Source of the DNA: an uncultured Bacilli bacterium
GTDB lineage: Bacteria > Bacillota_I > Bacilli_A > RF39 > UBA660
Assembly (NCBI GenBank): GCA_944329375.1
Contig: CALVIB010000007.1
Coordinates: 1 to 45,143, forward strand
Direction: 5' to 3'
Length of the DNA stretch: 45,143 nucleotides
The notes under the pieces were generated by a model. The model was not told the origin of the DNA. It searched no databases and saw only the letters and a program-made list of their open reading frames with translations. This document shows positions 7,545 through 14,497 of the stretch, piece by piece; within the stretch, counting starts at the first letter, position 1; each line of letters starts with the position of its first letter. A program made the translations under genes and the position numbers.

Positions 7545-8477
7545 ATGAAAACATTTTCTTATTCAAACACTAATAAACGCTACCACACCTTAGATTATTT
7601 TTATAAACAAAAATTCGGCGGGAAAGTATGTAAAATAAGCCTAAACGCAGGATTTACTTGTCCTAATATCGATGAAACATTATCTAAAAACGGATGTATA
7701 TATTGCTCAAAATCAGGTAGTGGCGAATATGGTGGAAATCCTAAAGAAGATTTAATAAAACAGTTTAATGAAATTAAAAAAGTCATGAATAAAAAATGGC
7801 CAAATGCAAAATACATAGGTTATTTCCAAGCAAGAACAAATACATATGCCCCTTTAAACATATTAAAAGAAAAATATGAAACAATTTTAAAACAAGATAA
7901 TGTAATCGGATTATCAATCGCCACAAGACCAGACTGTATAACAGATGAATGTTTAGATTATCTAGAAAAATTAAATAAAAAAACATTTCTAACAATAGAA
8001 TTAGGTCTACAAACCATCCATGAAAAAACATCTAAAATAATCAATAGATGTCATGATTTAAAATGCTTTGAAAATACATATAAAAAATTAAAAGAAAAAA
8101 ATATATTCACAGTTGTTCATATAATTAATGGTCTTCCAGGCGAAACCAAGGAAATGATGATAGAAACAGTCAAATATTTAAACAAATTAAAAATTGATGG
8201 AATAAAAATACATATGCTTTCTATTTTAAAAGATACACCATTAGAAAAATATTATAAAATAAAACCTTTTCATATACTAACCAAAGAAGAATATATTGAT
8301 ATAGTAATTACACAATTAGAATATTTAAATCCTAAAATTGTCATCCAAAGACTAACAGGCGCCCCTATGAAAGAAGAATTAATAGCACCCTTTTGGACAA
8401 CTAAAAAAATCGATGTCTTAAATAACATCGATAAAGAAATGGTCAAAAGAAACACTTATCAAGGTATTAAATCTTAG
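7545..8477 (+). CDS. ytqA: TIGR01212-family radical SAM protein (YtqA/YhcC type)
   Basis: This 310-residue protein carries the family-specific iron-sulfur motif with C39, C51 and C54 (CPNIDETLSKNGCIYC). Radical SAM core features follow, including ARTNTYAP and a GLQT block. Known members bind a 4Fe-4S cluster and SAM; the biological reaction of YtqA/YhcC is not settled, although a tRNA or translation role has been suggested. It is one of three plus-strand genes in the window and has its own promoter. Its last 11 bases overlap, tail to tail, the end of the DGR reverse transcriptase gene, which marks the edge of the accessory region. Confidence 0.88.
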   Translation: MKTFSYSNTNKRYHTLDYFYKQKFGGKVCKISLNAGFTCPNIDETLSKNGCIYCSKSGSGEYGGNPKEDLIKQFNEIKKVMNKKWPNAKYIGYFQARTNTYAPLNILKEKYETILKQDNVIGLSIATRPDCITDECLDYLEKLNKKTFLTIELGLQTIHEKTSKIINRCHDLKCFENTYKKLKEKNIFTVVHIINGLPGETKEMMIETVKYLNKLKIDGIKIHMLSILKDTPLEKYYKIKPFHILTKEEYIDIVITQLEYLNPKIVIQRLTGAPMKEELIAPFWTTKKIDVLNNIDKEMVKRNTYQGIKS

Positions 8478-9570
8478 CTCTAAAAATAAAATTACCTGTA
8501 TCAGCACTCATAAAATAACCTTTATAACTTGCTCTAACTAAAGTGTATTTTGAAAAATTATTTTTCTTTAACCTTTTAAGTTTTTTCTTAATTCTTTTCT
8601 TAGTTTGATTATTAATTATAATAATCAACTTTTTTTCTTTCAAAAAAAACTTATATCCTAAAAAATTAAAACCTTTTTTCATATCGTATATTTGTGTCTT
8701 TTTATTTAAAGATAATTTCAAACCTTTTAAATATTCTTCTATTTTCTTTAAACAAAATTTCAAATATTCCTTATCATGATGAAATAAAATAAAATCATCC
8801 ATATAACGTATATAACATTTTATACGTAGTTTTTCCTTAATAAAATGGTCTAGTCCATTCAAATAATAAACCGCTAAAATTTGACTGGTTTCATTTCCAA
8901 TAGGCAAACCAACACCTTTTTGATATCTTGGAAGTCTAAAAAGTTCAGTCTTCTTTTTTTCTAAATCACTAATATTTTTCTTCTCTAATTTACTTATTTC
9001 ATCAGCAATTATTTTATCAATAGACTTATTAACATTTAAATTATCTGTACTAGAAATAATTTCCTTTAAAATATTAAGAATATCTTTATCATCAAATTCC
9101 TTAGATAATTTTTCAAATAAAATCTCATGATTTATATTATAAAAATATTTACTAATATCACATTTCAACACATAAAAATTATCATAGTTCATTTTCATTT
9201 TATTAATATATTTTTTTGTATAATAAATTCCCATCTTAGTCCCCTTACCTTTCCTAGTAGCAACATTCATATCAATCAATTTAGGACTAAGTGTAGGAAT
9301 TAAAATATATTTACTAATTAAATGATTAATAATTTTATCTTTCATATTTTCACTCATTATTATACGGTACTTTGGTATATTAATTAAAAAAACACTATAA
9401 TTACTATGTTTATAAGTTCTATCTTCTAAAAGTTTCAAAACATAAACAACATTAGTAGAAAAAGCTAGTTCAAAACGAACTAACTTTTCTTTATGTCTAG
9501 TATTGGAATATATATTTTTATAAACATCCATTATCTTATCAATAGATAATATTTCATCATATTTAATCAT
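8467..9570 (-). CDS. Diversity-generating retroelement reverse transcriptase
   Basis: This 367-residue protein has the full palm set of a reverse transcriptase: RKGKGTKMGI at about 107-115, the first catalytic Asp in LKCDIS (D138), the IGNETSQ block at 224-230, and the catalytic YMDD at 256-259. Motif 4 reads IGxxxSQ, the hallmark of DGR enzymes; group II intron and retroviral enzymes usually have QGxxxSP. No maturase, endonuclease or RNase H domain is present, and the length is typical of DGR RTs. Known DGR RTs copy a template RNA into cDNA with errors at adenines, in complex with Avd. The start overlaps the stop of the upstream gene (ATGA), indicating translational coupling. A charged insert at about 175-212 between motifs is unusual. 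Confidence 0.95.
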   Translation of the reverse strand: MIKYDEILSIDKIMDVYKNIYSNTRHKEKLVRFELAFSTNVVYVLKLLEDRTYKHSNYSVFLINIPKYRIIMSENMKDKIINHLISKYILIPTLSPKLIDMNVATRKGKGTKMGIYYTKKYINKMKMNYDNFYVLKCDISKYFYNINHEILFEKLSKEFDDKDILNILKEIISSTDNLNVNKSIDKIIADEISKLEKKNISDLEKKKTELFRLPRYQKGVGLPIGNETSQILAVYYLNGLDHFIKEKLRIKCYIRYMDDFILFHHDKEYLKFCLKKIEEYLKGLKLSLNKKTQIYDMKKGFNFLGYKFFLKEKKLIIIINNQTKKRIKKKLKRLKKNNFSKYTLVRASYKGYFMSADTGNFIFRAKI

Positions 9571-10223
9571 TTAATACCAACACTAACTAATTTATAATTA
9601 TTATTAACCTTTTCATAATTATAAACTTGCATTGTTCCTTTATCCAAAATATTATTTAACTCATTTTCATTATATGTACCTATTTCGTTATCATTTAAAT
9701 CATAAACCTTACCATTTTCCACATATCCAGCCATAACATCAAGTTCCAATTTATCAGTTCCACTATAACCATATAATTTTGTCACATAATTTTTTGTACA
9801 AGAAGAATTTTCTCTAGTAATTTTATTATCATTTAAACTATACTGATAACCTTCAAACACATATTTAAAATTTAAAGGTATGTATTCCTCATCTATTACC
9901 TTTAAAGCAGAAGATTTATAATCCTCTAAACTAATTGAATCACTCAAAACACTATCGTTTTTCATTTGTCCAAAAATTAAATAAAGTAAAACCTTATCAT
10001 CTATTTCTGATATTCCTAAATTATTATTTATTTTTATAACCTCTGTACATTTATTATCACCATGATTCTCATATAATTTTTCTACAACTTTATGATTAAC
10101 AGGAGAATTATCTTTTATATCCCCTTTATCCATCAATATAAATAAAGAAACAATCACAATAACAAATAAAACTACACATAAAATTATCTTAACACTCATT
10201 ATCTTCTTTTCTTTTGAGCCCAT
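9567..10223 (-). CDS. Membrane-anchored protein of unknown function inside the DGR operon
   Basis: I do not recognise this 218-residue protein. Residues about 9-31 form one membrane anchor (VKIILCVVLFVIVIVSLFIL); the remaining 185 residues should face outside. The outer part contains two Cys, in NKCTEV and SSCTKN, that could form a disulfide. The start at 10223 has a strong AAGGAGG seven bases upstream and makes the gene overlap avd by 35 bases; its stop overlaps the RT start. A gene this tightly coupled between avd and RT is likely co-expressed with them. It is not a standard DGR component. Confidence 0.8.
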   Translation of the reverse strand: MGSKEKKIMSVKIILCVVLFVIVIVSLFILMDKGDIKDNSPVNHKVVEKLYENHGDNKCTEVIKINNNLGISEIDDKVLLYLIFGQMKNDSVLSDSISLEDYKSSALKVIDEEYIPLNFKYVFEGYQYSLNDNKITRENSSCTKNYVTKLYGYSGTDKLELDVMAGYVENGKVYDLNDNEIGTYNENELNNILDKGTMQVYNYEKVNNNYKLVSVGIK

Positions 10224-10539
10224 AAGCCATCCTCCTTACCTCTAATAAAAATTTACTAATAACCTCAAACTGATGCTTACTAATTATCTTTTTATCATAA
10301 GACACCCTTACATAAAAATCACACATAGATAATTTAACAAGTAAATCTTTCAAATATTTTTCCTTAATACGCATACTATCATTTATATTATAAGCAAATA
10401 TACATTCAATTAACTCATAATTATTTTTTTCAATATTTTGTTTTAACACAACTTCTTTTTTAGGATAATTAATTAAAATTTTATTAATATAATTAATTGT
10501 TTTATATGTATTATTCAAAACCTTAAAATTGTAATTCAT
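10189..10539 (-). CDS. avd: Avd-like DGR accessory protein
   Basis: This 116-residue, basic, all-helical protein ends with ISKFLLEVRRMAYGLKRK, the C-terminal helix pattern of accessory variability determinant proteins, which resemble the 23S rRNA intervening-sequence four-helix bundle. In studied DGRs, Avd is a pentamer that binds the RT and template RNA and is needed for mutagenic retrohoming. An earlier in-frame ATG exists at 10554, but AAAGG seven bases before the second ATG supports 10539. The gene follows the spacer RNA of TR-A by about 40 bases and overlaps the next gene, giving the order TR-spacer-avd-X-RT. Confidence 0.88.
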   Translation of the reverse strand: MNYNFKVLNNTYKTINYINKILINYPKKEVVLKQNIEKNNYELIECIFAYNINDSMRIKEKYLKDLLVKLSMCDFYVRVSYDKKIISKHQFEVISKFLLEVRRMAYGLKRKEDNEC

Positions 10540-10576
10540 AAGTAAACCTTTCATAAATATATTTTACTAAAATAAT

Positions 10577-10796
10577 TGTGATAAGGAAAAACATTTTCCT
10601 TACCACCAATATAGCAAATAGTCATATAAATTAACAAAGTTATATAACGTCTATATTATTTTTTTAGGTATAAAACCAGGAAATTAATCTTGTTTCCAAT
10701 CTAAAAGACTATTACTTATGTAATTACTTCCTCTCATTATAAGTCCAAAAACTCTATAACACTCGGTTCACTAGTAAACAGTTACTAATTGTAGTA
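10577..10796 (-). ncRNA. DGR spacer RNA, copy A (downstream of TR-A)
   Basis: About 220 noncoding bases lie between TR-A and avd and are similar over nearly their whole length to the segment at 10946-11162. Shared landmarks on the minus strand are a TTAGTAA/TTACTAG hairpin, GAACCGAGTGTTATA, GAGGAAGTAATTACAT, TTTAGATTGGAAACAAG and a 3'-terminal hairpin. In the Bordetella phage DGR a structured spacer next to the TR is needed for cDNA synthesis. I infer the same role here from position, duplication and conserved pairing. Confidence 0.7.
10578..10606 (-). other. 3'-terminal hairpin of spacer RNA A
   Basis: A 13-base-pair stem with one G-T wobble and a three-base loop closes the spacer RNA. The arms read GTGGTAAGGAAAA and TTTTCCTTATCAC on the minus strand. 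Copy B has the same stem with different bases. It may be the RNA 3' end, a weak terminator or the RT-Avd docking element. Confidence 0.75.
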
Positions 10797-10904
10797 GGAA
10801 ATTGGGCGGACGCCGTTGCCATTACTAACTCCAGGATTGCCAAGAGAGCCAACAGCAGTAACATCAAAAACATTAGCATTACTATCATTGTTAAAGAGCG
10901 ACGG
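10797..10904 (-). repeat. DGR template repeat A (TR-A)
   Basis: The first 18 bases on the minus strand (CCGTCGCTCTTTAACAAT) are shared with TR-B and TR-C, and the end GGCGTCCGCCCAATTTCC is also identical in all three. The core differs. Read in the frame of the VR it is open for 34 codons and is rich in AAT, AAC and AGT, the adenine-bearing codons that DGRs mutate. No VR in this window matches this core, so its target is probably elsewhere in the genome. Confidence 0.8.
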
Positions 10905-10937
10905 CATAAAACACTATCCACAAATTAGATTAATCCC
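10905..10937 (-). repeat. Conserved leader before TR-A
   Basis: GATTAATCTAATTTGTGGAT plus the following AGTGTTTT are identical before TR-A, TR-B (11274-11308) and TR-C (11431-11464). Each template therefore carries a common upstream RNA segment. Confidence 0.75.
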
Positions 10938-10945
10938 AAAATAAT

Positions 10946-11162
10946 TGTGTGGCTGAGGGAAAACCCTCACCACTAATATAGTTATAATTTTATAAATTAT
11001 AAAAAGTTATAAAACATCTATATTATCTTTTTAGGCATAGCCAGGGAATTAACCTTGTTTCCAATCTAAAATCGATTATTACCCATGTAATTACTTCCTC
11101 TCGTTATTAGTACGTAACCTTATAACACTCGGTTCATTAGTAAATAATTACTAATTGTAGTA
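10946..11162 (-). ncRNA. DGR spacer RNA, copy B (downstream of TR-B)
   Basis: This is the second copy of the roughly 220-base spacer, alignable end to end with 10577-10796. The sequence has diverged in loops and AT-rich parts, while the hairpins and the block around TTTAGATTGGAAACAAGG are kept. It lies directly between TR-B and the leader of TR-A, so TR plus spacer forms a tandem unit of about 365 bases. Confidence 0.7.
10949..10973 (-). other. 3'-terminal hairpin of spacer RNA B
   Basis: GTGGTGAGGG pairs with CCCTCAGCCAC around a TTTT loop with one bulged G. Compared with copy A, an A-T rich stem has become G-C rich with both arms changed, so pairing is retained by compensatory changes. Confidence 0.75.
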
Positions 11163-11273
11163 GGAAATTGGGCGGACGCCGTTGCTATTATTAACATTGC
11201 CCCAGTTGTTGAGCTCTCCAGAAGAAGTAACGTTGAACTCGTGTGCGTTGCTATCATTGTTAAAGAGCGACGG
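11163..11273 (-). repeat. DGR template repeat B (TR-B)
   Basis: It has the same conserved ends as TR-A and TR-C, but a different core of 35 codons (one longer) in the VR frame, with many AAC and AAT codons. The encoded stretch would read PSLFNNDSNAHEFN in place of PSLFNNWNNANVFR in TR-C. No matching VR is present in the window. Confidence 0.8.
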
Positions 11274-11308
11274 CATAAAACACTATCCACAAATTAGATT
11301 AATCCCCA
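11274..11308 (-). repeat. Conserved leader before TR-B
   Basis: This copy is identical to the leaders before TR-A and TR-C in the GATTAATCTAATTTGTGGAT block. It begins only a few bases after the end of TR-C. Confidence 0.75.
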
Positions 11309-11322
11309 AATTTTTTAAAATT

Positions 11323-11430
11323 GGAAATTGGGCGGACGCCGTTACTATTGTTAACATTGTCGTTGTTAAGCTCGCCAGTAGAAGTCACACGAAACACGTT
11401 AGCGTTATTCCAATTGTTAAAGAGCGACGG
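11323..11430 (-). repeat. DGR template repeat C (TR-C), template of the local VR
   Basis: It aligns with the VR at 11625-11727 over about 104 bases with 8 differences. Seven are at adenines of TR-C: two A-to-C, three A-to-T, one A-to-G and one deleted A. The eighth is a C-to-T. Three AAC codons become TAC (Asn to Tyr), the classic DGR change. The 3' end GGCGTCCGCCCA is identical in TR and VR, and beyond it the two keep partial similarity, as expected for IMH and IMH*. TR-C has no spacer of its own: the leader of TR-B follows almost at once. Confidence 0.93.
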
Positions 11431-11464
11431 CGAAAAACACTATCCACAAATTAGATTAATCCCC
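11431..11464 (-). repeat. Conserved leader before TR-C
   Basis: This is the third copy of the GATTAATCTAATTTGTGGAT leader. At its end TR-C reads TTTTTCGCC where the other two read TTTTATGCC. Confidence 0.75.
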
Positions 11465-11487
11465 AAATTTTTATCATAATTGCACCG

Positions 11488-11515
11488 TGTCAAAAATGAA
11501 GAGTCATTTTTGACA
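11488..11515 (-). other. 12-bp inverted repeat between target gene and TR-C
   Basis: TGTCAAAAATGA and TCATTTTTGACA form a perfect 12-base-pair stem with a four-base loop. No T run follows on the minus strand, so it is a poor terminator there. It may be a structural element of the template transcript or a weak terminator for the opposite strand. Confidence 0.6.
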
Positions 11516-11541: not shown

Positions 11542-11561
11542 GTTGTTTCTTACGAAACAAC
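11542..11561 (-). other. 8-bp inverted repeat at the stop codon downstream of the VR
   Basis: GTTGTTTC and GAAACAAC form a perfect 8-base-pair stem with a four-base loop (GTAA) that contains the stop codon of the repaired target gene. Phage DGRs need a small DNA hairpin of just this size (8-bp stem, 4-base loop) downstream of the VR for efficient homing. Here it lies about 63 bases beyond the IMH, farther than in the Bordetella phage. Confidence 0.6.
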
Positions 11562-11680
11562 ATATGGATCTTGCATTGTTCCTGTTCCAGTAAATGTCAG
11601 ATTATCAGTTTTTAGATTGACAACTGGGCGGACGCCGTAACTATTGTTAACATTGTCGTAATTAAGCTCGCCAGCAGAAG
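11550..11680 (-). pseudogene. Out-of-frame 3' end of the DGR target gene
   Basis: After the frameshift in the VR, the original reading frame remains open here. It encodes SYGVRPVVNLKTD and later FTGTGTMQDPYVVS, then stops at 11550-11552. This is the standard ending of these target proteins. Adding one base near 11710-11713 joins it to the upstream frame and gives exactly 983 codons (982 residues). It is therefore the displaced tail of the gene at 11681-14497, not a separate gene. Confidence 0.85.
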
Positions 11681-11727
11681 TCACACGAAACACGTAAGCG
11701 TTATTCCAAGGTGAAAGAGCGACGGCG
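11625..11727 (-). repeat. DGR variable repeat (VR)
   Basis: This is the C-terminal coding segment of the target gene, bounded by CGCCGTCGCTCTTT at the start and GGCGTCCGCCCA (the GC-rich initiation-of-mutagenic-homing end) on the minus strand. It matches TR-C except mainly at template adenines. The encoded segment is the ligand-facing part of a C-type-lectin-like fold in known DGR targets. A one-base deletion at 11710-11713 puts the second part out of frame. Confidence 0.92.
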
Positions 11728-14497
11728 TAATAGTCCAGTAATATGTTCCAGTATATAAGTAAAATAATATGTTCTGTGAGCCTGTTCTTCCTCCAGCCAT
11801 ACTTACTTCATCAGCTGTTATTAAGCCTACTGGTTTTGTTAATTTTCCATTTCCTTTTACTGTTGTAACTGTAAACTTATCATTCGCCTGTGGGCAAATA
11901 AGTGATGGACTTATACTTGAGCCATTCCAATTATAAAATCTTGGATAACTATACATTGTTGGAGTTACTCCATATCCTTCCCCTACATATGGCGATGCTT
12001 TATATGTTGATAATTCTCTATTATTACAATATATTGCATCTTTTGATATTATATTATCTACTGATGATAAATTACTATTGTACCAATCTTCTAAATATGT
12101 TTTCATTGTACTATCCACTTCATTCGCATGTGCTTTTTCATAAGATGTACTTGACCATTCTACTGCTTTTACACTCATTGATGTCGCTGATACGTATTTC
12201 TGAACATGATTTAATCTTTGACATGTTCCATTTTTATCTGTAATAAAACATGTATAATACATTTTATCATTAAAATTATCTCTATATTCTGTTATCGTTG
12301 CTTGCATTAATTCTCCTGATAATTTAAATGTATTTGTACTTTTATCAAATGTATAACTTGTACCGTAATAATACTTGGCTGATGAATTTAATCCTGTATA
12401 TGTAAACGCTGCTGAAGCTTCACTAATTTGATTATCACTTGGGTCTCCATACATATATCCTACATATGCATTATCACTCCACCAACTATTAAAAGCTTTT
12501 GTTCCTACTTGCCTATTACTACTTGCTTCCCCATTCGCATGACCACTTGTTCCATCATATATTATTCTTAATGTTCCATCTCCATTTATTCTTATTATTC
12601 TAAAGTATTTATCAGCTAGTTTTATGTAATTACCAGCTACTGCTCCCCTATAATAATAACTCGTTCCATCATCATCTTGAGCCGCATACATTCCCCTACT
12701 AGAATTATCATAACTTTTTACACTTGCCGTGTAATTATATTTAGTTAGTGTATAGGTCTTAGCTCCCGTAGAAGAATTTGTACTTACTGTCATTCCTACT
12801 ACTTTATACATCGTTGTTCCAGATGTATTTGTACTTCCGATTATATAATAGTCTTTTCCATCACTAAAATCTATTGTTTCTGGGTCAACCATTTTTGCAC
12901 CACTTAATGTATAATAACCTGTTGTAGAATTAAATGTATAACTATTAGATACATAAAAATATGTACTTTGCGTTATTGTTGATGTATTAACCGCATGATT
13001 TTCACTATATACTATGGCTGGCGATGTTTTAGTAAAATCTGGCGCTCCTTTTTCCTCTATCTTTTGCTTAGCTGTTTCTACATTCGCTTCCTGCATCTCT
13101 GTCGCTATTACACAATCTGATAAATCATCTATCCCATTTTGTTTGCAAAATGTCGTATATCTTATTGTCGTACTTTTCGCCATCGATTCACTAACATTTC
13201 CTGCACTATCTTCTACATATGCTGTTACTAAATAATCCCCTTCATCTAAACCTACAAATGTATAATTTGGACTATCACTTTCTATATAATCTTCTCCATT
13301 ATTTTTACTATAATAATATTTATATACTCCACTATGATTATCATTTGCTTCTAATGTTATTGTCATTGTATCTTCAAGTGGCTCTAAAGTCATATTAGTA
13401 AGTGTTGGAACTTCACTATCTACTTTATAACCCTCTGTACATTTTACTGTTTCATTTCCTTTTCTATCTTTTATTAATACACACAATGTCTGATTATTAT
13501 TAGATGAGGCAAACTGATATGTTCCTTTTCCTTCTGTTAAAGCTAAATTGGTATTTGGCTCACATGTATCATTAGATGTTACACAATATTTACTTTCACT
13601 TATTCCTCCTGCATCTTTGGCTATAATATTTATATCTAATCCTTTATACCATCCATTGTTTCCTTTTATATTATTTCCTATTTCAAATTTTAAATCTGGT
13701 TTTGTATTATCTAATGTTTTAAATTCTTTTGATGAAAATACTACTTCTCCTTTTGTATCTTCAGCTTTTACATACATAACATAATTTGTATAAGGTATTA
13801 AATGATATATTGTATACATATTTTCTGTACTTTCATACCATTTATCATTATCTAATGAATAATAATATTTAAATGCGTTACTAGCATTTATATCTGCTTT
13901 TACAGATGTCTCTGAAATATCTAAATCTATTCCTTTTATTGCAAGTACATCCGATACATCTGTATCAGCTTCTGAAAAGTTTGACGAATTTCCATTTTGT
14001 AAGTAATTTAAATTCATATTAAATATAACACTTTCCATATCTGGCTGTTCAGTAATATTTTCATTATATTTCATAATGACATCAAACTTTGTAGATTCTC
14101 CTTGTTTTAAAACATCTCCAGACATAATTCCATCTACTTTAAATTCTATTATATCTTGGCTATCCATATTTATTTTTATACTATCTAAAATAGCATCTAA
14201 GCTTCCTAAATTTGATACTGTAACTTCATATGTTATTGTATCTCCTGGAAGATAAAAATTAGCTTCCATATTTGCATTCAACATATCGAATGTATGATTC
14301 ACATCTTCTGCATTTCCTACTTTAGTTTTCATTTGTAAATCGGTTATTTCTATATCCCATTTACTTGTTACCATACTACTTCCTTTTATTTCTAATTTAC
14401 TTGAAAATGCACTATATCCTACCATCATTATTAATAATATACTTATCAGGCCTATTAATAATATATTCCTTTTATGCCTTTTTCTAATATTTTTCAT
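11681..14497 (-). CDS. DGR target: large membrane-anchored surface protein, frameshifted in its VR
   Basis: The readable frame gives 938 residues. A basic N-terminus and one membrane segment at about 12-30 (ILLIGLISILLIMMVGYSAF) are followed by a TasA/camelysin-like beta domain, several fibronectin- or Ig-like modules (YYYSLDNDKWYES, YYYSKNNGEDYIES) and a C-terminal domain of about 340 residues leading into YYWTITPSLF and the VR. It should display the variable loop outside the cell. From about residue 928 the frame is shifted by one missing base, so the listed end (HLGITLTCFV) is aberrant. The intact gene would run to 11550 and encode 982 residues. A strong promoter and an AAGGAG site precede the ATG. 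Ligand unknown. Confidence 0.9.
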   Translation of the reverse strand: MKNIRKRHKRNILLIGLISILLIMMVGYSAFSSKLEIKGSSMVTSKWDIEITDLQMKTKVGNAEDVNHTFDMLNANMEANFYLPGDTITYEVTVSNLGSLDAILDSIKINMDSQDIIEFKVDGIMSGDVLKQGESTKFDVIMKYNENITEQPDMESVIFNMNLNYLQNGNSSNFSEADTDVSDVLAIKGIDLDISETSVKADINASNAFKYYYSLDNDKWYESTENMYTIYHLIPYTNYVMYVKAEDTKGEVVFSSKEFKTLDNTKPDLKFEIGNNIKGNNGWYKGLDINIIAKDAGGISESKYCVTSNDTCEPNTNLALTEGKGTYQFASSNNNQTLCVLIKDRKGNETVKCTEGYKVDSEVPTLTNMTLEPLEDTMTITLEANDNHSGVYKYYYSKNNGEDYIESDSPNYTFVGLDEGDYLVTAYVEDSAGNVSESMAKSTTIRYTTFCKQNGIDDLSDCVIATEMQEANVETAKQKIEEKGAPDFTKTSPAIVYSENHAVNTSTITQSTYFYVSNSYTFNSTTGYYTLSGAKMVDPETIDFSDGKDYYIIGSTNTSGTTMYKVVGMTVSTNSSTGAKTYTLTKYNYTASVKSYDNSSRGMYAAQDDDGTSYYYRGAVAGNYIKLADKYFRIIRINGDGTLRIIYDGTSGHANGEASSNRQVGTKAFNSWWSDNAYVGYMYGDPSDNQISEASAAFTYTGLNSSAKYYYGTSYTFDKSTNTFKLSGELMQATITEYRDNFNDKMYYTCFITDKNGTCQRLNHVQKYVSATSMSVKAVEWSSTSYEKAHANEVDSTMKTYLEDWYNSNLSSVDNIISKDAIYCNNRELSTYKASPYVGEGYGVTPTMYSYPRFYNWNGSSISPSLICPQANDKFTVTTVKGNGKLTKPVGLITADEVSMAGGRTGSQNILFYLYTGTYYWTITPSLFHLGITLTCFV

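Follow-up and report, generated by a model that had tools for sequence, protein, structure and literature searches.

Introduction

In the usual description of diversity-generating retroelements (DGRs), a single template randomises the fixed adenines of a single scaffold. In the Bordetella phage BPP-1, where the elements lie in the order avd-TR-spacer-brt with one template repeat (TR), the folded spacer recruits bRT-Avd and serves to prime cDNA synthesis (PMC12875486). DGRs with several TRs are already on record. In the MetaCSST study, 271 DGRs had multiple variable repeats (VRs), and about 20% of these had more than one TR, with examples of two and six TRs, which were read as TRs with corresponding VRs (PMC6642488). 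In Treponema denticola, several TR types occurred in one person or sample and fed related target genes, but the TR variants there are found among strains, the core system of the isolates has one TR, and no tandem array was described (PMC4891356). Here we describe a DGR on the minus strand of a 45,143-nt stretch of DNA from an uncultured Bacilli bacterium (assembly GCA_944329375.1, contig CALVIB010000007.1, positions 1 to 45,143; the whole stretch is called the window below), in which three TRs, named TR-A, TR-B and TR-C, accompany a single reverse transcriptase (RT).

The locus resembles BPP-1 in its RT, its accessory variability determinant (Avd), a TR beside a structured spacer, adenine-specific TR-to-VR changes, a GC-rich 3' pair of initiation of mutagenic homing sequences (IMH in the VR, IMH* in the TR) that fixes the direction, and a VR at the C-terminus of the target. 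In contrast to BPP-1 with its one TR, the locus has three TRs, of which two have a spacer and one has none, and a further gene lies between Avd and RT. A DNA hairpin follows the IMH after ~4 nt in BPP-1, whereas a conserved inverted repeat here lies ~110 nt downstream of it. The DGRs of the MetaCSST study likewise have more than one TR each, but here one VR slot has been written by different TRs, and one relative carries a mosaic VR. In pilin or vls silent-cassette antigenic variation, several donors with shared ends rewrite one expression site and give mosaics; this is an analogy only, since donor information in the DGR goes through a mutagenic reverse transcription step that randomises adenines.

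We propose, with a probability of about 0.77, that this DGR has a template array: TR-C, TR-B and TR-A would each be maintained independently and serve as alternative donors for one shared class of VR. Interchangeable templates at one VR are better supported than further VRs acted on in trans. If the proposal is true, the cell could jump between scaffolds and then fine-tune, so that retroelement mutagenesis and cassette-type antigenic variation would be combined, and the template array would be a natural design for multiplexed DGR editing in laboratory strains. A literature search, thin on subscription papers, gave no account of alternative TRs for one VR, of template switching or of TR-TR mosaic VRs, and priority is not established.

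Three template repeats and one reverse transcriptase

Between 8467 and 14497, the minus strand carries the target gene with the VR at its end, TR-C, TR-B, spacer B, TR-A, spacer A, Avd, a 218-aa gene and the RT, in that order; all features given below are on this strand. The cores of the repeats lie at 11329-11431 (TR-C, without a spacer of its own), 11169-11274 (TR-B) and 10803-10905 (TR-A). The first 19 nt, GCCGTCGCTCTTTAACAAT, and the 3' end, AACGGCGTCCGCCCAATTTCC, are common to all three, the end being AACGGCGTCCGCCCA followed by ATTTCC. An identical 11-nt leader arm, GGGATTAATCT, is found 21-22 nt upstream of each core, at 11453-11463, 11296-11306 and 10927-10937 for TR-C, TR-B and TR-A, respectively. 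The VR frame is open across the cores of TR-A, TR-B and TR-C for 34, 35 and 34 codons (42, 43 and 46 from stop to stop). The ends and codon counts agree with a preliminary description of the window, which had reported three distinct TRs with identical leaders and ends, open in the VR frame. Its adenine-rich core does not hold for TR-A, which is only 20% adenine compared to 27-28% in the other two, and the description had not separated from the TRs the ~165-nt 3' RNA element that is found on TR-A and TR-B and not on TR-C.

The window corresponds to contig C7 in the draft genome (G000; 1.19 Mb, 81% complete) of a host described as a gut-type bacterium, and its closest relatives are metagenome-assembled genomes (MAGs) labelled uncultured Bacilli. 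In the closest of these (G017, RT 84% identical, array on contig CALVRC010000019, here C19) the same order of VR, TR-C, TR-B, TR-A, Avd, extra gene and RT was independently assembled, which makes an assembly artefact an unlikely source of the array. G000 contained one RT of this type, so that a single RT serves three TRs, as the preliminary description had it, instead of the one TR per RT of an ordinary single-template DGR. The same description had held that TR-A and TR-B are not faded TR-C. Any two of the three TRs differ at 14-27 non-adenine positions, with no enrichment of their differences at adenines (Fisher p 0.12-0.98), which supports that view: the TRs are not mutagenised or faded copies of one another, and mutagenised or simply faded copies of TR-C were rejected as an explanation of TR-A and TR-B.

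Different template repeats at the same VR slot

Each VR was compared with each TR of the same genome, and changes at TR adenines were counted apart from all others. The only VR in the window has its core at 11625-11726, with an IMH that ends in CCCAGTT. Compared to TR-C, 6 of 27 adenines and 1 of 75 other positions were changed, and there was one 1-nt deletion (p 1.3e-3). The comparison with TR-B gave 10 of 29 adenines and 13 of 73 other positions, and with TR-A 8 of 20 and 25 of 82. The window VR is explained by TR-C alone, and the preliminary assignment of this VR to TR-C stands. In G017, which has the same C-B-A array, the VR in the orthologous cis slot differed from its own TR-A at 10 of 23 adenines and at none of 80 other positions (p 5e-8), with 13 and 18 non-adenine mismatches to TR-B and TR-C. 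Thus, orthologous slots hold different scaffolds. The TR/VR differences lie at TR adenines, as expected of a DGR, with p down to 1e-9 in relatives. The IMH of the VRs is GGCGTCCGCCCAGTT and the IMH* in the TRs of this RT group is GGCGTCCGCCCAATT, a GC-rich pair.

The window VR has one non-adenine mismatch to the TR-C of the window and 11 to the TR-C of G017. It fits its own TR-C and not that of G017, and therefore TR-C wrote the VR after the species split. TR-C is without a spacer in both genomes; together with the writing after the split, this suggests that a spacer-less TR was used as a donor, assuming that the spacer-less state is ancestral.

Eight multi-TR arrays with two to four TRs each were found, and every cis VR fits one TR, except for one mosaic. 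The numbers of TRs and spacers were three and two in G000 and G017, four and one in G026, two and one in G015, two and two in G021, three and one in G292, and four and four in G241 and G402. G292 belongs to another genus, and the four-unit TR-spacer arrays of G241 and G402 are in other genera. The G402 VR fits TR3 with no non-adenine mismatch (7-12 plus gaps for its other TRs) and that of G241 fits TR3 with one, while the VRs of G026 and G021 fit TR4 and TR1, respectively, with none. A VR in G022, in a target that is 74% identical, is nearest to the window's TR-B but fits it weakly (14 of 30 adenines compared to 15 of 75 other positions changed). G241 has further TR-spacer units on three more contigs.

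The mosaic is the VR of G015, a genome with two TRs and one spacer. Its 5' part matches TR2 at 5 of 5 diagnostic non-adenine sites and its 3' part matches TR1 at 6 of 6 diagnostic positions, three of which are one 3-nt gap. There was no exception among the 11 diagnostic positions, and the break falls in the shared middle, at core positions 28-63. The combination leaves no non-adenine mismatch compared to 5-6 for either TR alone, and all 11 remaining differences are A-to-N; scoring with the reversed donor order, TR1 at the 5' side and TR2 at the 3' side, gave no improvement. The pattern, with the 3' part from a later and the 5' part from an earlier event, is what variable 5' integration would leave. 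In BPP-1, homology between TR and VR is reported to be the only requirement for 5' integration (PMC3240598). An alternative is a lost single template with the same combination. The VRs examined in G084, a genome whose several DGR loci comprise two TR types and no fewer than eight VRs, included no clean mosaic.

Coding selection on the template repeats

The TRs are not genes in place and are not translated there. Compared between G000 and G017 in the VR frame, the nonsynonymous and synonymous divergences (dN/dS) were 0.17/0.70 for TR-A, 0.08/0.68 for TR-B and 0.05/0.41 for TR-C. The same substitutions were then moved to random like bases and the resulting amino-acid changes were compared with those observed. 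The randomised substitutions gave more amino-acid changes than observed for TR-A (P 0.0002) and TR-B (P 0.006); the P value for TR-C, which has few changes, was 0.14. TR-A and TR-B are thus not relics, and their VR frame is kept under purifying selection, which bears out the earlier view that both are still in use. For TR-B, with no VR identified in G000, coding selection is the main evidence on which we read it as used.

These results bear on the possibility that each array has one active TR and that the others are decaying duplicates. The lack of a spacer on TR-C, the lower adenine content of TR-A and the adenine depletion of some distal TRs (TR1 of G026 and of G292) would fit decay, but all three TRs of the window have intact ends, leaders and frames, compensatory pairs are kept in the spacers, and the active TR differs between species. 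With the purifying selection on TR-A and TR-B added, we regard decay as very improbable.

Spacer RNA and the leader-spacer helix

The structured RNA elements 3' of the TRs were found at 11020-11182 (spacer B, including the TR-B IMH*) and 10653-10816 (spacer A, including the TR-A IMH*), scoring 190.6 and 162.5 bits with a covariance model, R1, that was built with these two sequences among others. The spacer consensus has compensatory changes in 14 of 70 pairs. Among 386 genomes sampled from the family, the model had hits in 31, and an Rfam search of the spacer element gave no match.

An 11-bp helix links the leader 5' of a TR to the spacer 3' of it. All 121 of 121 cells were paired in 11 sequences, five cells had double changes, and the covariation score was above that of all 500 shuffles and all slid controls. 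In the window, the spacer arms that pair with the leader are AGGTTAATTCC in spacer B (11045-11055) and AGATTAATTTC in spacer A (10680-10690), and the leader arm of TR-C pairs 11/11 with both. Each of the 6 spacer-less TRs examined has a leader that pairs 11/11 with the spacer of its own array, and the minimum-energy fold of an RNA with TR-C, TR-B and spacer B pairs the TR-C leader with spacer B. Spacer-less TRs raise the question of whether one spacer can prime cDNA from more than one TR via the leader helix, and this helix could let them use a neighbour's spacer. A separate observation, made by eye, is that the spacer motif AGATTGG is complementary to the VR 3' flank, which also encodes a conserved protein motif.

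A template array or recombination between repeats

In the template-array model, the single RT and Avd would copy any of the TRs. The resulting cDNA could home to the same VR, because the 5' end, the 3' IMH* and the leader are common to all of them. Each event would randomise adenine positions and could swap the non-adenine scaffold, and a homing tract that ended inside the repeat would give a mosaic VR. By analogy with BPP-1, the structured 3' spacers of TR-A and TR-B would recruit RT and Avd and prime the cDNA. TR-C would borrow the spacer of TR-B in one transcript, its leader forming the same 11-bp helix with spacer B, and TR-B would be looped out by this helix or TR-C would be copied after TR-B. 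Transcription and priming are presumed, the template would be chosen by helix competition, and the benefit would probably be scaffold switching of a surface receptor.

Several points weigh against this model. All the genomes compared are draft MAGs, and the search for VRs in the relatives covered IMH-matched VRs with at most one mismatch. Switching is inferred across species and was not observed inside one population; no VR is proven to have been written by TR-B, and within G000 the same is true of TR-A. The reading frame of the target is broken by the VR deletion in this assembly. The whole RNAs folded no better than shuffles (z -1.34, 0.13 and -0.84), and because of this and because the leaders are identical, pairing of the TR-C leader with spacer B would be a possibility, not a preference. 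Spacer-less TRs could persist through recent duplication or DNA recombination, and DNA recombination between repeats clearly occurs here. In G016 (contig C4), a deletion has joined the VR to a TR 3' end; the target now ends in GVRPISYYS, and no array is left. In G017, the targets on contigs C2 and C19 share 99.93% identity over 2,891 bp, and behind the C2 copy lies a hybrid VR remnant of the TR-C type; recent whole-target gene conversion has homogenised the two.

It is therefore conceivable that DNA recombination, as VR/TR gene conversion or unequal crossing-over, moves the scaffolds and that mutagenic homing proceeds from one TR at a time. Besides the G016 fusion and the G017 targets, this would fit the first, VR-proximal TRs of G026 (L146 3171-3275) and G292 (L217 3602-3710), which resemble captured VRs: they are adenine-poor and differ from their neighbours with a bias to adenines (p 1e-8 and 1.4e-5), as would a mutagenised copy that had come to occupy a TR position. 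However, the VR-TR differences are almost only at adenines, in both parts of the G015 mosaic, and at the 3' junctions the VRs keep the VR-type IMH, CCCAGTT, and the TRs keep CCCAATT, as one-way mutagenic homing predicts. We consider this explanation unlikely. The two first TRs also allow a more doubtful extension of the array model, in which arrays would be two-way libraries that supply alternative scaffolds to one VR via a shared spacer and archive successful VR variants into TR positions; such a library would give the bacterium a heritable memory from which useful binding surfaces could be restored or re-diversified.

Search for VRs elsewhere in the genome

The preliminary description had predicted a minimum of two additional VRs, diversified in trans, and the same thought underlies a partition of the templates in which each TR has its own VR and TR-A and TR-B diversify targets elsewhere. 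When G000, 81% complete, was searched with the TR-A and TR-B cores, allowing any base at adenines and at most three mismatches, only the TRs themselves matched, and no dedicated VR for TR-A or TR-B was found; the missing 19% of the genome could hold such VRs. A single TR-like VR in trans was found in G000, in a DUF6273-type gene near the end of contig C8. This diverged VR is in itself what partition would call for, but it is nearest to TR-C, with 8 non-adenine mismatches, and treating it as a TR-A/TR-C or TR-B/TR-C mosaic gave no gain over TR-C alone. IMH-like sites on contig C5 were rejected as VRs, having no TR-like core. At 12000-17000 of C5 there is a cluster of paralogues with the same N-terminal family as the C8 target, ending in GVRP and with IMH-like DNA.

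Trans cassettes in relatives also favour partition. Contig C2 of G017 has a second target cassette with a gene of the 218-aa type, beside a BAX-inhibitor-like gene (named from sequence, not by a family search), and G022 has a trans target whose VR is the one nearest to TR-B. However, the G017 cassette is 4.26 kb long and the corresponding site in G000, on contig C1 at 86000-100000, is empty, with contiguous flanking genes and 88 nt between the matched blocks. In addition, TR-A writes the cis VR in G017, and G026, a 94%-complete genome with four TRs, has one detectable VR with this IMH. The predicted further VRs and the reading of one extra VR per extra TR were thus not upheld, and we regard partition as improbable.

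Protein-coding genes and flanking elements

The RT (8467-9570) is a 367-aa protein that matched Pfam RVT_1 (E 2.2e-18), and all its NCBIfam matches were below cut-off. Its translation contains YMDD and IGNETSQ, the latter fitting [LIV]GxxxSQ, which we take to be a motif of DGR RTs; together with the RVT_1 match, these place it among RTs of the DGR kind. Avd (10189-10554) matched Pfam bAvd PF22296 (E 1.5e-12, 48.4 bits against a cut-off of 40), and its NCBIfam Avd match (3.2e-12) was below the family cut-off.

The target gene (11681-14497), with the VR at its 3' end, is a 938-aa open reading frame (ORF) for an immunoglobulin (Ig)-like, surface-type protein. Its VR frame runs on to a stop at 11550-11552; the 1-nt deletion in the VR relative to TR-C, at 11705-11713, shifts the end of the target out of frame and ends the annotated ORF at 11681. 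Slippage by the RT or an error in the assembly could account for the deletion. The VR is C-terminal in the target, where a DUF6273 match (E 0.023) was below cut-off, and the predicted structure of the C-terminus was unusable (mean predicted local distance difference test score, pLDDT, 37). Scans of IMG/VR with the RT and with the TR 3' pattern gave no matches, and a phage link was not supported.

Between the target and the array lies the inverted repeat TCAAAAATGACTCTTCATTTTTGA (11486-11511), a hairpin or terminator that is kept in relatives, and a terminator-like hairpin with a T-rich tail (10578-10606) closes the TR-A/spacer-A unit. The extra conserved gene between Avd and RT (9567-10223) encodes a 218-aa protein with an N-terminal hydrophobic segment and no family match. 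A paralogue of this gene lies directly 3' of the trans target genes on contig C2 of G017 and contig C35 of G022. In G028 and G031, which belong to the same genus, a second VR type was seen, with ~5 to 8 VRs over many contigs, likely a multi-target DGR network.
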